Shown piece by piece: positions 4,117 through 64,000 of a stretch of DNA of 64,000 nucleotides. This stretch comes from Elusimicrobiaceae bacterium. Lineage in GTDB: Bacteria > Elusimicrobiota > Elusimicrobia > Elusimicrobiales > Elusimicrobiaceae. Below the pieces are notes generated by a model. That model was not told the DNA's origin and did no database searches. It saw only the letters and a list, made by a program, of their open reading frames with translations. The first letter of the stretch is position 1, and the number at the start of each line of letters is the position of its first letter. The stretch is taken from the NCBI GenBank assembly GCA_017534965.1, contig JAFXVA010000008.1, forward strand, positions 1-64,000, written 5' to 3'. The position numbers were made by a program, and so were the translations under genes.

Positions 4117-6385
4117 TTTTGACTCCTATAAATTCCTTTATTTGTTTAAAATCTGTTTCAAGCCCTTTGGCGTGGGCTTCTTTTATTTTTGACCCCGTCT
4201 TTTTGGGGCTTTTCATTTGTAAAGACGGATCTTTCATGGTTTTATATGTTCTAAAAGCTAAAGCCGGCTCGCCGCTTTCATCGGTTAGGTTTTCTGAAAG
4301 GACACCACGCTTAGAAGTGTTCTTAAACATTGTATAAATATCTAAATCAAAATCTTCCTTATGCCAATCAACCCAACCGCTAATTGTAGCTGCAATAACA
4401 TTGCCATCCAAATAGAAATTATTTATATTCATTTTACCATTTGTAAAACCGGTTGAAGCATTCATAATTTCAACAGGGGTATCTTTTAGAACTTTACTCA
4501 TTTTAAAAGAACCGGCACGCTCCATATTATTCATTATAACAAATGGCTGAAATGCAATACCAAGCGCCTGTTGGCGTTCGGCCGCCTCTTGAAGTTTATA
4601 AATAATACCTTCTTTTAAAGAAGCATCAATTTTGCCGTTTAATTTATCCATACCAGGAAGGAGGTTTTCCAAACTAAACTCGGCATAAAAATCTTTGCCG
4701 TAAACAATAGGCGTTTTAAATTCTTCGCCGTAAAGTGAGCCACTAAAGTTTGGCATAAACTTCGGAATATTATTTTTGAAATTATGCAACCACGCAAGAG
4801 AGCCCTCCTCTTTTGACGGATGTTTTGTTCCGTCTGAAAGAGCTTCCACAAAATCTTGGGTTAAATCAAAAATTTCAAGAGGTTCAAAAACACTTGTATA
4901 AATCAAAGTTTTTATGCGCCTTTTTTGAGCATTTGCCACATTAGAGATAGCAACGCTCATTTTCATTTTCTTATCATTAAGCATAGTATCATAAACTTGG
5001 GCATAGAAATTTTGTTTAGAATATTCTAAAGTCGTTGTGCCTTTGATTTCGGAAATAACCTGACGCCCGACTTTAAAAATACCATCTTGCACTGTCGCTG
5101 TCATATAATCGAAATTATCGCGCGCTTCAAAAGTGCCTTTTACCTGCTCTATAGTAAAATTGCTGATAAAGGCATCAACTTTATTTAAAGTTGCCTTTAA
5201 AGAAGGCCAACGAAGTTTGCCCTGATTATAATTTATTACGCCTTGCAAAGTTAAATTACCCTTTAGTTCATAAGGTTTAAGAAAAGTTAAAAAGGTTTGC
5301 TTTGTTATATCAAATTCTTTGGTTTTATAGTTTAATTTACCGCTCTTGGAAGTAAAATCAAAATTGCCTTGTGCCTGAATATTAAGATTATTGTTTTTTA
5401 ATTGTAAATTATTAAGCACAAGTTTTGAAAAATTATCTTCCAAAGAAGCTTGTATATTTGCGGCAAAAGCAGGATATTTTGTTTTAAAGGATTTATCATA
5501 AAACAAGGAAACATCTTCATAACCAAAAGAAGGAATATCAAAGGAGGCCTCTATTTTAGGTGTTGTGAAATCTTTAAGATTAAACTTGAAATTTAGCGGT
5601 TTTTTAAAAAGATCTATAGTGCCTGTTGTATCCGTAAAACTCATTTCTTTGGCATTAAAATCAGCAAAGTTTACTTTACCTTTTAGCGAAATGCCTGTTT
5701 CAATAATTCTATCTTCCATGCGGTTGCGAACAATAAAATCAGAAGTAAAGTCAGTAAAATCGTTAAATTTTAAATTAAGAAAACGCGCATTAAAACCACT
5801 TAAAGAATGAGCAACTTTCGTTTGTAAATCTTTATAAGCGAAAGTTCCGTTTTTAATTGTCCAATCTTCTACAACAACTTCTATATTTTGGCCGGAAAAA
5901 GATTTAACATTAAATTTTTGGCCTTCCTGACTTTGCTGGGAAGAGATTAGTAAAGGTTGTATATTATAAAGGCCGTTTTCGTCTTTGACAATATGAATTA
6001 AAGGGCTGTTTAAAATAATTTCTTCTATAATAACCTGATTACTTAAAAGAGAGGTTAAATCATAATGAATGGTTAAATCTTCTACAGAAATAAACTCTTC
6101 ATATTCTTCTTGCTTATCATCAATAATTTTAAGACCTTTTATTTCCACACTGCTTAAAGAAGCAAGTTTAATTTCATCAATAACTACCGGCTTGCCGAAA
6201 TATTCCTGCACTCCGTTTACAACTATTTGCCCGAAATTATGGGCATTAAAATATTTAACAAGGACAAACCAACTTATACAACCTAAAACAACAAGAATCA
6301 AACAGATAAAAAATAAAGAACGTATTACATTTTTTATAGTAAATTTTGCGGCTTTAAAAATGTTCTTTAAAATTATCTTACTCAT
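4097..6385 (-). CDS. AsmA-like inner-membrane/periplasmic protein
   Basis: 762 aa. One N-terminal transmembrane helix (about residues 18-42, FFICLILVVLGCISWFVLV) anchors a very large periplasmic part. It is built of the beta-rich repeats typical of AsmA/TamB/YhdP-family proteins, which help move phospholipid or assemble the outer membrane. The opening QEYFGKPVVIDEIKL followed by a VEIKGLKI strand is characteristic of the AsmA N-terminal domain. The C-terminus (FKMSKVLKDTPVEIMNASTGF, then NNFYLDGNVIAATISGWVDW) resembles the AsmA C-terminal repeat. It overlaps the M50-like gene upstream by 4 nt. The precise role is inferred from family only. Confidence 0.8.
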   Translation of the reverse strand: MSKIILKNIFKAAKFTIKNVIRSLFFICLILVVLGCISWFVLVKYFNAHNFGQIVVNGVQEYFGKPVVIDEIKLASLSSVEIKGLKIIDDKQEEYEEFISVEDLTIHYDLTSLLSNQVIIEEIILNSPLIHIVKDENGLYNIQPLLISSQQSQEGQKFNVKSFSGQNIEVVVEDWTIKNGTFAYKDLQTKVAHSLSGFNARFLNLKFNDFTDFTSDFIVRNRMEDRIIETGISLKGKVNFADFNAKEMSFTDTTGTIDLFKKPLNFKFNLKDFTTPKIEASFDIPSFGYEDVSLFYDKSFKTKYPAFAANIQASLEDNFSKLVLNNLQLKNNNLNIQAQGNFDFTSKSGKLNYKTKEFDITKQTFLTFLKPYELKGNLTLQGVINYNQGKLRWPSLKATLNKVDAFISNFTIEQVKGTFEARDNFDYMTATVQDGIFKVGRQVISEIKGTTTLEYSKQNFYAQVYDTMLNDKKMKMSVAISNVANAQKRRIKTLIYTSVFEPLEIFDLTQDFVEALSDGTKHPSKEEGSLAWLHNFKNNIPKFMPNFSGSLYGEEFKTPIVYGKDFYAEFSLENLLPGMDKLNGKIDASLKEGIIYKLQEAAERQQALGIAFQPFVIMNNMERAGSFKMSKVLKDTPVEIMNASTGFTNGKMNINNFYLDGNVIAATISGWVDWHKEDFDLDIYTMFKNTSKRGVLSENLTDESGEPALAFRTYKTMKDPSLQMKSPKKTGSKIKEAHAKGLETDFKQIKEFIGVKNEKTEN

Positions 6386-60632: not shown

Positions 60633-61256
60633 TTAGTTGTTCTTTACCAAAATGGAAGAAATTGTATTTGCGACATGTTCGCACATATCGGTAACGCCTT
60701 CGCTTTCTTCAAAAAGTTCTTTTTGCTTAATCGCCATTAAAGGATTAATCTTTTCATCGTTAAGTATGCGGGAAATGGCTTCATCGCGAATATCATCAGC
60801 CAAGTTTTCAAGACGGTTAATTTCAACACAATGTTTAGCGGTTTCTTTAATTTTCTTTTTGTGTCTCAAAGAAAGAACCGCTTGTGAAACTTCTATGGCA
60901 GATTTTTCTATAATCTCAGCAAGATGTTTTGATTCCTGCGAAGGTTCAAATATTTTAAAAAGATAAAAACGATTTGTGATAAGATAAATACCATCAATAA
61001 TATTATCCATTTGATTGGTAAGGTCTAAAATATCTTCTCTGTCAAAGGGGGTTATAAAACTTTCATTTAAAGTGTTTATGATATTGTGGCAAGATTCATC
61101 ACCATCGTGTTCAAGAGAGTGCATTTTGCTAACCATATCTCTTGTAATTTCCGGCGTGCAAACAATCTTTTTAAACAAAGAAGCACATTCCATAACAATA
61201 GCGGCCTGTGCGTCAAATAAATCAAAAAACTTTACTTCTTTTGGCATAAATAACAT
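60633..61256 (-). CDS. DUF47 / PhoU-like regulator of the phosphate transporter
   Basis: 207 aa, all-helical. Motifs EHDGDESCHNIINTLNESFITPFDREDILDLTNQMDNIID are the DUF47 signature with metal-binding acidic residues. Thought to regulate the neighbouring Pit transporter. Strong AGGAGG site. The leader upstream holds a terminator-like hairpin (61276-61307). Confidence 0.94.
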   Translation of the reverse strand: MLFMPKEVKFFDLFDAQAAIVMECASLFKKIVCTPEITRDMVSKMHSLEHDGDESCHNIINTLNESFITPFDREDILDLTNQMDNIIDGIYLITNRFYLFKIFEPSQESKHLAEIIEKSAIEVSQAVLSLRHKKKIKETAKHCVEINRLENLADDIRDEAISRILNDEKINPLMAIKQKELFEESEGVTDMCEHVANTISSILVKNN

Positions 61257-61275: not shown

Positions 61276-61307
61276 AAAAAAGCAGGCGCACAAAAGGGCC
61301 TGCCTGA
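61276..61307 (-). terminator. Terminator-like hairpin in the DUF47-pit leader
   Basis: On the minus strand GCAGGC and GCCTGC (61303-61298 and 61287-61282) enclose a 10-nt loop, with TTTTTT next and then AGGAGG of the DUF47 gene. Because the upstream gene is divergent, this hairpin can act only on the DUF47-pit transcript itself, i.e. as an attenuator. Confidence 0.75.
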
Positions 61308-61372
61308 TAATCAGCTAATTAGTGTATTAAGTGAAAAATTTATATTCTTTTCCATTACTTACATTATAGCAA

Positions 61373-62248: not shown

Positions 62249-63355
62249 TTAGATTTTTACTAAATTAAAGTTTTTATCAAAAATATTAAAAGATATTTTT
62301 TTACCTTTTTTAAAAACACCTTCGGAAGCATTAAAAAGTTTTGCCGGGTTTTGCGTAGCGCACAAGAAAGCAACTTCGGGCGCAATATTCCAAGCTATTA
62401 AATTTTTAACACCTTGCTGCATACTCAAAGCAGAGCCGGCAATAACACCATCTTCTTTGCGGACAAAAACGCCGTTTTTAAAAATGACTTTTTCGCCGTT
62501 GGCAAGGCCTTTTTTAAGTCCGCTTGGCGTTAAACTATCGGTAATAAGAACAATTTTATTTTTATCTTTTAAAGCAAAAACAAGTTTTAAAACCTCGGGC
62601 AAAATGTGGTGGCCGTCAGCTAAAAGTTCCAAAGAAAAATCTTTATTTATTAAGCCCGCACCCACAGCACCCGGTTCTCTGTGATGGAAACCTTTCATTG
62701 CTAAGAAAAAATGGGTTATATGTTTTGCACCTAAAGAAAAGGCTTTTTGCATATTTTTATAACTTGCGTTTGTGTGGCCAAGTTGCAAAAGAACTTTATT
62801 TTTTTTACACCAAGCAGCAAGTTTATTAAAGTTTTTTAACTCGGGAGCCGCGGTAATAGAAACAATTTTGCCGTTTGCTGCTTTATATAATTTTTCAATT
62901 AAAGAAATATCAATTTCTTTTATATCACTTGGCTTCATTACGCCCGGTTTTTGGGGCGATAAAAAAGGCCCTTCCAAATGAAACCCAATAATTCTTGCGC
63001 CCTTTTCTTTACCCATTACGCTAGAAAAACTTTTTAATTTTTTTATCATTTCACTCGGCGCACTTGGATATAAAGTCGGGCAGAAAGCCCCAACACCGAC
63101 TTTAAAAAGGGCCTTAGAAAGCTTTAGTAAATCTTCGGCACTACCATCCGCACCGAAGCCAAAAGCACCATGGATATGTGTTTCCACAAATTTTGGAATA
63201 AAATATTTATCTTTTAAATCAATAATTTTTTGGGCTTTATTTTTTTTAATTTCGCCAAAAATAAAATCTTCCAAAACCTCATTATTTAAGACGGCAGAAC
63301 CAAGTTTAAATTTGCCGTTAAAAAATATATTTGCGTTTTTATAAATTGTTCTCAT
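62249..63355 (-). CDS. nagA: N-acetylglucosamine-6-phosphate deacetylase
   Basis: 368 aa amidohydrolase that makes glucosamine-6-phosphate in amino-sugar recycling. Metal motifs: VETHIHGAFGFG (His60, His62), FHLEGPFLSP (Glu), LLQLGHTNASY and AKHITHFFLAMKGFHHREPG. Catalytic Asp in LITDSLTPSG. TATAAT lies 6 nt before the ATG with no Shine-Dalgarno, suggesting a leaderless mRNA. Divergent from the peptide-transporter leader. Confidence 0.94.
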   Translation of the reverse strand: MRTIYKNANIFFNGKFKLGSAVLNNEVLEDFIFGEIKKNKAQKIIDLKDKYFIPKFVETHIHGAFGFGADGSAEDLLKLSKALFKVGVGAFCPTLYPSAPSEMIKKLKSFSSVMGKEKGARIIGFHLEGPFLSPQKPGVMKPSDIKEIDISLIEKLYKAANGKIVSITAAPELKNFNKLAAWCKKNKVLLQLGHTNASYKNMQKAFSLGAKHITHFFLAMKGFHHREPGAVGAGLINKDFSLELLADGHHILPEVLKLVFALKDKNKIVLITDSLTPSGLKKGLANGEKVIFKNGVFVRKEDGVIAGSALSMQQGVKNLIAWNIAPEVAFLCATQNPAKLFNASEGVFKKGKKISFNIFDKNFNLVKI

Positions 63356-63361
63356 ATCTAA

Positions 63362-63397
63362 ATTATATAAAACTAATGCTTAAAATTTTGGTATAAT
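63362..63397. promoter_or_regulatory. Divergent leaderless promoters of nagA and the POT leader
   Basis: Minus strand: TATAAT (63367-63362), 6 nt, ATG 63355 of nagA. Plus strand: TGGTATAAT (63389-63397), 6 nt, ATG 63404 of the leader ORF. Both would start transcription at the start codon. Confidence 0.6.
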
Positions 63398-63403
63398 ATT
63401 TTT

Positions 63404-63475
63404 ATGATAAAAAACATTATTCACTCCCCCTTTATGATTTTGGCTATCTCAATTAAAGATAGTGCCGGGGTTTGA
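63404..63475 (+). CDS. Ile-rich leader peptide of the peptide transporter
   Basis: 23-codon ORF, starting MIKNIIHSPFMILAISIKDS and then AGV, with six Ile. It begins at the expected transcription start. Codons 8-9 contain CCCCC and codons 22-23 contain GGGG, and these bases take part in the attenuator fold described at 63426-63536. No Shine-Dalgarno, as for other leaderless starts here. Coding status is inferred from this arrangement. Confidence 0.55.
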   Translation: MIKNIIHSPFMILAISIKDSAGV

Positions 63476-63536
63476 TGTTTTTTAAAAAAGCTTTTTGTTA
63501 AAACCCCAAAATTTAAAAAAAGTTTTGGGGTTTTAA
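63426..63536 (+). promoter_or_regulatory. Four-segment transcription attenuator of the POT gene
   Basis: Segments: A CCCCC (63426-63430), B GGGGTTT (63467-63473), C TTAAAACCCCAAAA (63498-63511), D TTTTGGGGTTTTAA (63523-63536). A:B is backed by a GGC-TATCT / AGATA-GCC helix. C:D is a 14-bp terminator-like hairpin, and B:C (7 bp) excludes both. A ribosome paused over codons 5-7 would mask A, free B and prevent termination. Confidence 0.65.
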
Positions 63537-63626
63537 ATTTAAACAAAAAGAAAAAATTAAAAGTAAGATTATTTGTTTAAAATAAAAGATAAAGAAAAAA
63601 ACAAATAATTAGGATTGGAGGAATCC

Positions 63627-64000
63627 ATGCAAGACGCTGCTACACGTAATGTAACAAAAAGCGGCCACCCCAAAGGGCTTTATATGCTCTTTATGGTTGA
63701 AATGTGGGAAAGGTTCAATTATTATGGTATGAGAGCATTGCTTTCCCTCTTTATGATAAGTGCTGTTATTAACTTTTCTAAAGATGCCGCAAGTAAAGTG
63801 TATGGTATGTTTACCGCACTTGTTTATTTGACCCCTGTTTTAGGTGGTTATTTAGCTGATAGATTTATCGGCAAACGCCATTCTATTACAATTGGTGCCA
63901 CCCTTATGGCCCTTGGTCAATTTTCACTAGCATCTTATGAGATTATTAACCCGAGAGTTGCTTTAGTAATCGGTTTAACTTTAATTATTTTAGGTAATGG
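63627..64000 (+). CDS. POT/PTR2 family proton-dependent peptide transporter (partial)
   Basis: The first 124 codons are in the window. HPKGLYMLFMVEMWERFNYYGMRALLSLFM is the POT signature, with the ExxERFxYY-type motif in helix 1; YLTPVLGGYLADRFIGKR follows. Predicted to import di- and tripeptides with protons. Strong TGGAGG site 7 nt before ATG 63627. It is preceded by the attenuator leader, so expression likely responds to amino-acid or charged-tRNA status. Confidence 0.93.
   Translation, partial: MQDAATRNVTKSGHPKGLYMLFMVEMWERFNYYGMRALLSLFMISAVINFSKDAASKVYGMFTALVYLTPVLGGYLADRFIGKRHSITIGATLMALGQFSLASYEIINPRVALVIGLTLIILGN

Follow-up and report, generated by a model that had tools for sequence, protein, structure and literature searches.

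The sequence studied here (the window) covers the first 64 kb of a contig of 239 kb, part of the 1.32 Mb MAG of a gut-dwelling bacterium. This MAG was placed in the Elusimicrobiaceae because its nearest relatives are Elusimicrobiaceae MAGs, most of which are ruminant-derived. At the end of the window lies the start of a gene for a POT-family peptide:H+ symporter, the start codon of which was read directly at 63627, and its product matched both PF00854 (E = 9.5e-68) and the oligopeptide:H+ symporter profile TIGR00924 (E = 4e-98). The divergent gene nagA adjoins the leader at 63355 on the minus strand. A preliminary description of this DNA had reported a promoter, a 23-codon ORF with six Ile codons and four complementary RNA segments (A to D) ahead of the symporter gene, and direct reading found every one of them in place. 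The features of the leader, all on the plus strand, are as follows.

63389 to 63397, plus strand: extended -10 promoter TGGTATAAT, with the -10 hexamer TATAAT at 63392 to 63397 (direct reading)
63404 to 63475, plus strand: leader ORF, 23 codons encoding MIKNIIHSPFMILAISIKDSAGV with six Ile, then a stop codon (direct reading)
63409 to 63419, plus strand: 5' arm of P1, AAAAAACATTA, the outer stem of the A:B hairpin, partner 63473 to 63483 (fold, alignment)
63426 to 63430, plus strand: segment A, CCCCC (direct reading, fold)
63443 to 63463, plus strand: P3, the inner hairpin of the A:B structure, GCTATCT/AGATAGT (fold; 6 of 7 pairs kept in three species)
63467 to 63473, plus strand: segment B, GGGGTTT, overlapping the ORF stop, with A or C as partner (invariant in three species)
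63473 to 63483, plus strand: 3' arm of P1, TGATGTTTTTT (fold, alignment)
63491 to 63550, plus strand: basal stem round C:D, 63491 to 63499 with 63542 to 63550, CTTTTTGTT/AACAAAAAG (fold, alignment)
63500 to 63511, plus strand: segment C, AAAACCCCAAAA, putative terminator 5' arm or antiterminator partner (invariant)
63523 to 63541, plus strand: segment D, TTTTGGGGTTTT (63523 to 63534), and tail AAATTTA, with the putative stop just after 63534 (invariant)
63567 to 63610, plus strand: A/U-rich hairpin, 12-bp stem, loop length differing among species (alignment, fold)
63612 to 63626, plus strand: small hairpin GGATT-GGAGG-AATCC, which holds the Shine-Dalgarno sequence in its loop (invariant in three species; fold)
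63627 to 64000, continuing to position 4983 of record L004, plus strand: DtpA-like POT-family peptide:H+ symporter gene, 451 aa (profile matches)

The -10 element, with which no good -35 was found, is identical in both relatives that carry the leader, G016 (record L005) and G003 (record L006); the window genome is designated G000. Because the ATG of the leader ORF lies 6 nt downstream of the -10 hexamer, where the transcription start would be expected, the ORF is probably leaderless, with a transcript that, judging from this spacing, would start at or next to the AUG; no Shine-Dalgarno sequence precedes it. In scans covering 399 kb (G000, 239 kb; G016, 160 kb), ATG was found 19 times at 6 nt and 17 times at 7 nt downstream of TATAAT, versus roughly 7 times at other distances; for ATGs that open ORFs of at least 60 codons, the counts were 11 and 6, versus 2-3 elsewhere. 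Given this enrichment, leaderless genes are probably common in the lineage. nagA is also built with the leaderless spacing, and the leader ORF fits the enriched class.

Counterparts of the ORF without any indel are found in G016 (MIKNIIHSPFIIGSILLKDSAGV) and G003 (MIKNIKHSPFMIWSILLKDSVGV), all three species having 23 codons and a TGA or TAA stop. As is expected of an attenuator, the ORF is thus short, lies between promoter and gene, and is conserved in frame in the three species, which share the peptide MIKNI-x-HSPF-x-I-x-x-I-x-x-KDS-x-GV. Ten of the 18 variable columns in the three-species ORF alignment are third codon positions, a bias that modestly favours a coding sequence.

Folding of the leader, a check proposed in the preliminary description, gave a clear result (z = -4.4, with none of 200 shuffles equally good). 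A:B forms a long hairpin composed of the outer stem P1, a C/G stem P2 and the inner stem P3. Segment B repeats part of D and does not vary among the species. A B-like partner for C (at least 7 bp, at least 4 of them G-C) arose in 3.8% of shuffles, so that B:C alone is only moderately surprising; the exact GGGGTTT appeared in 0.9%. The weight of evidence that the segments are real is carried by conservation more than by these chance odds.

When 18 genomes of the genus and 90 of the family were searched, the leader was present in three species only (G000, G016 and G003). In the 90 family genomes, the covariance model R1 gave strong matches to these three known leaders alone, and the leader was not found in more distant relatives; the weaker R1 matches that we examined mainly covered the hairpin part, many of them at gene ends or between converging genes. 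Likewise, BLASTN of the leader within the genus returned the three true loci and otherwise short A/T-rich matches, one of which, L100, was inspected and lacked segments B, C and D.

No change is seen among the three species in segments B, C and D, the loop or the tail. Of the 72 leader columns outside the ORF, at least 65 are the same in all three, compared with 95 of 168 four-fold sites (56%) of the POT gene (Fisher P = 1e-7); the alignment count is in fact 67 of 72, which makes the test conservative. Intergenic regions before divergent genes are fairly conserved among these species generally, mostly at 71-86%, and the leader region stands at the top of that range. P1 carries one compensatory change (columns 12/74, C-G to U-A in G003) and a one-sided change at pair 15/71 (U-G to U-A in G016), while one P2 and one P3 pair change from C-G to U-G in G016; the pairs P3 40/60 and basal stem 88/147 are not kept across species. 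The comparative alignment named in the preliminary description thus bore out the conserved ORF, nearly all paired positions and one covarying pair in A:B, but gave none in C:D, which never varies in the three species and therefore cannot be supported by covariation.

C:D is not a strong terminator by the standard hairpin and U-tract score, with d = -10 in the window and -9 in G016. A value of -10 falls short of the usual cut-off and of nearly every recognisable gene-end terminator on the contig, where 25 of 56 convergent gene ends and none of 53 coding stretches scored above 0. The U-tract of C:D is UUUUAAAUUU. Elsewhere in the family, hairpins flanked by AAAACCCC...GGGGUUUU and then A are found repeatedly between converging genes or after genes, with stronger upper stems. 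We consider termination at the putative C:D stop likely but partial.

Next to the start codon, the POT Shine-Dalgarno sequence GGAGG forms the loop of the perfect 5-bp hairpin at 63612-63626, invariant in the three species. In the A/U-rich hairpin at 63567-63610, between the proposed attenuator and the start codon, the stem hardly varies; UUUGUU/AACAAA is common to its arms and the C:D basal stem, so that an alternative pairing is possible.

These features bear on the best-surviving alternative, in which the leader would be a stable structured 5' UTR whose role is to protect or position the mRNA, with no regulated termination and with an ORF that is incidental or serves only to load ribosomes. 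The low score of C:D speaks for it, as do the two further conserved hairpins near the start codon and the conserved basal stem, the 3' arm of which is located past the putative stop; this stem closes only in read-through RNA, and a plain terminator needs none. Attenuation leaves the basal stem beyond the stop and the two hairpins before the start codon unexplained. A structured UTR, in turn, leaves unexplained an ORF kept in frame without indels and a segment B that is both an invariant copy of part of D and placed over the ORF stop, and we consider it unlikely.

The proposed attenuator was simulated in silico by a stall model, in which the RNA was treated as unavailable up to a point 13 nt downstream of the A-site codon's first base. 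For RNA ending at C, the probability of B:C was 0.93-1.0 with A-site codons 2-17, fell to about 0.7 at codon 18, and was zero from codon 19 on; beyond about codon 19, C:D was the sole possible fold. The stall scan in all three species reached the antiterminator under an early stall, as a fold exclusive of the others. The earlier claim that A:B plus C:D and B:C exclude each other, and that the position of the ribosome decides between them in the manner of trp/ilv attenuators, therefore held in these simulations. Once D had been made, C:D was the equilibrium winner at every ribosome position, and the switch would therefore be kinetic, like classical attenuators. At ribosome-free equilibrium, the A:B probability was 0.94 in the window sequence, compared with 0.23 and 0.27 in G016 and G003, and B:C was favoured in two of the three species, which counts against the attenuator reading; A:B would precede B:C in time of forming.

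To which shortage such a switch would respond was considered from the biosynthetic gene content. Ketol-acid reductoisomerase (KARI, IlvC), imidazoleglycerol-phosphate dehydratase (IGPD, HisB) and prephenate dehydratase were found in none of the 18 genus genomes, and neither an IlvD-type dehydratase nor a BrnQ-type carrier was found in the window genome, the carrier search being confined to the BrnQ type as distinct from ABC-type amino-acid transporters. As synthesis families for branched-chain amino acids, His and Phe are missing, the cell is probably auxotrophic for them, which makes the suggested coupling of peptide uptake to amino-acid shortage plausible.

A narrower idea, put forward in the preliminary description, is an isoleucine-specific attenuator with Ile5-Ile6-His7 as control codons. 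Six Ile in the 22 codons after Met exceed expectation from the contig Ile frequency (P = 0.007), four of the six are conserved in all three species, and Ile synthesis is probably absent. However, four conserved Ile are no more than chance could readily give (P = 0.10), G003 has AAA (Lys) at codon 6, the ORF has no run of codons for one amino acid, a stall at any of codons 2-17 was equally effective in silico, and the genes for His and Phe synthesis are lacking too. The Ile specificity was therefore not upheld: we rate this version as improbable, and a sensor of shortage of several essential amino acids fits better.

Slightly less probable still, in our judgement, is a nascent-peptide sensor, in which MIKNI-x-HSPF...KDS-x-GV would arrest the ribosome in response to a small molecule (for example, a free amino acid or a peptide) instead of to lack of charged tRNA. 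In its favour, His7, with a synonymous change, and Phe10 are conserved even where the model leaves their bases unpaired; but only three sequences bear on this, and elsewhere the conservation of the peptide is explained by pairing. A metabolite riboswitch or T-box containing an ORF by chance would account for a compact conserved fold preceding a transporter gene, but the ORF is conserved and there is no obvious conserved unpaired core like that of aptamers, so that we think it very unlikely. Searches for known Rfam leaders and riboswitches returned only tRNAs in the window at the gathering threshold and chance-level matches in a lax search of the leader, and the T-box (RF00230) was found neither in the 18 genus genomes nor in the window.

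Taken together, the best reading, which we hold with moderate confidence on the strength of sequence comparison and folding models, is that a transcription attenuator governed by ribosome position controls a peptide importer in an amino-acid auxotroph. Under this proposal, the transcript would begin at or next to the AUG of the leaderless 23-codon ORF. A ribosome stalled anywhere in codons 2-17, when charged tRNA is short, would keep segment A unpaired; with A unavailable, B:C would pair before D is made, the C:D stop hairpin would be prevented or delayed, and the importer would be transcribed. A ribosome that has reached the stop codon would cover B, allowing C:D to form and reducing expression, and if the ORF were untranslated, A:B would hold B, with the same formation of C:D and reduced expression. 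The signal would be a shortage of any of several imported amino acids (Ile, His, Phe and others in the ORF), and not of Ile alone. The sequence elements, their conservation, the mutually exclusive folds, the in-silico effect of ribosome position and the missing synthesis families were observed, whereas we infer where transcription starts, that the ORF is translated, that transcription ends at C:D, and what signal is sensed. The main doubts about attenuation are the weak terminator and the small sample. The fuller proposal, that a leaderless leader peptide acts as a multi-amino-acid hunger sensor and switches on the peptide importer by antitermination in an Elusimicrobiota auxotroph, is offered tentatively and may well not hold in its entirety.

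Other POT genes of the lineage have other leaders. Four other species of the genus (L012, L023, L027 and L035) carry a different terminator-like hairpin, AGTACTCGCAG...TTGCGGGTGC followed by a T-run, which starts at the likely POT transcription start, shows pair-preserving changes and contains no ATG-started ORF; more distant relatives have a short POT leader alone, beginning near GAGTACYC. The terminator-like hairpin in those four species speaks for the attenuator reading of the window leader. Because these species differ in this manner, premature termination before the POT importer may have had more than one origin, or undergone more than one change, within the genus. In L008, L015, L021, L024 and others, a near-palindromic GAGTACYC / GGGTACCC element directly follows the POT -10 and is possibly an operator or start-site element.

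Within the window, a strong terminator-like hairpin (d = 18) likewise lies between the -10 and the start codon of the DUF47/Pit phosphate-transport genes (60633-61256), and their leader (61282-61368, minus strand) contains a 14-codon ORF at leaderless spacing. This arrangement recurs in G016, where the peptide is not conserved. In the 399 kb scanned, the POT leader and the phosphate-transport operon were the only arrays of leaderless mini-ORF, hairpin and gene that recurred in both species, which also favours the attenuator reading.

Classical attenuators gauge one amino acid and control its synthesis. If the proposed reading is true, attenuator logic would control the import of mixed peptides in a cell apparently unable to make several amino acids, leader-peptide attenuation would reach a further phylum and take on a role in nutrient uptake, and one more example would join the few leaderless leader peptides. 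Searches of the available literature brought up neither a leader-peptide attenuator ahead of a POT transporter nor any attenuation in Elusimicrobiota, a negative that counts only weakly as a sign that none exists. A 2010 survey described leader-peptide systems as shown only in Proteobacteria and Actinobacteria, and itself added Firmicutes (PMC2965389).

The POT leader resembles the trp, his and ilv attenuators of Proteobacteria and Actinobacteria in its short ORF, a segment B over the ORF stop, exclusive folds and an outcome decided, in silico, by ribosome position, whereas it differs in preceding a peptide importer and not a biosynthesis operon, in having no run of control codons and a weak U-tract, and in belonging to Elusimicrobiota. 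T-box systems similarly tie amino-acid uptake to charged-tRNA shortage by antitermination, but do so by direct tRNA binding and have no leader ORF. In Sinorhizobium meliloti, the 5' end of the trpL transcript is the AUG of the leader ORF, which is thus leaderless (PMC7298713), as that of the POT leader probably is; the trpL ORF has consecutive Trp codons and serves Trp biosynthesis. The ilvL-ilvBNC leader of Corynebacterium glutamicum has an ORF start codon one nucleotide from the transcription start, mixed branched-chain codons, and terminator, antiterminator and anti-antiterminator hairpins, and has been experimentally tested (PMC11857589). The POT leader would likewise have a leaderless or near-leaderless ORF, with mixed branched-chain codons, and three alternative hairpins; the C. 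glutamicum leader differs in being an experimentally tested system that controls a biosynthesis operon in an actinobacterium.
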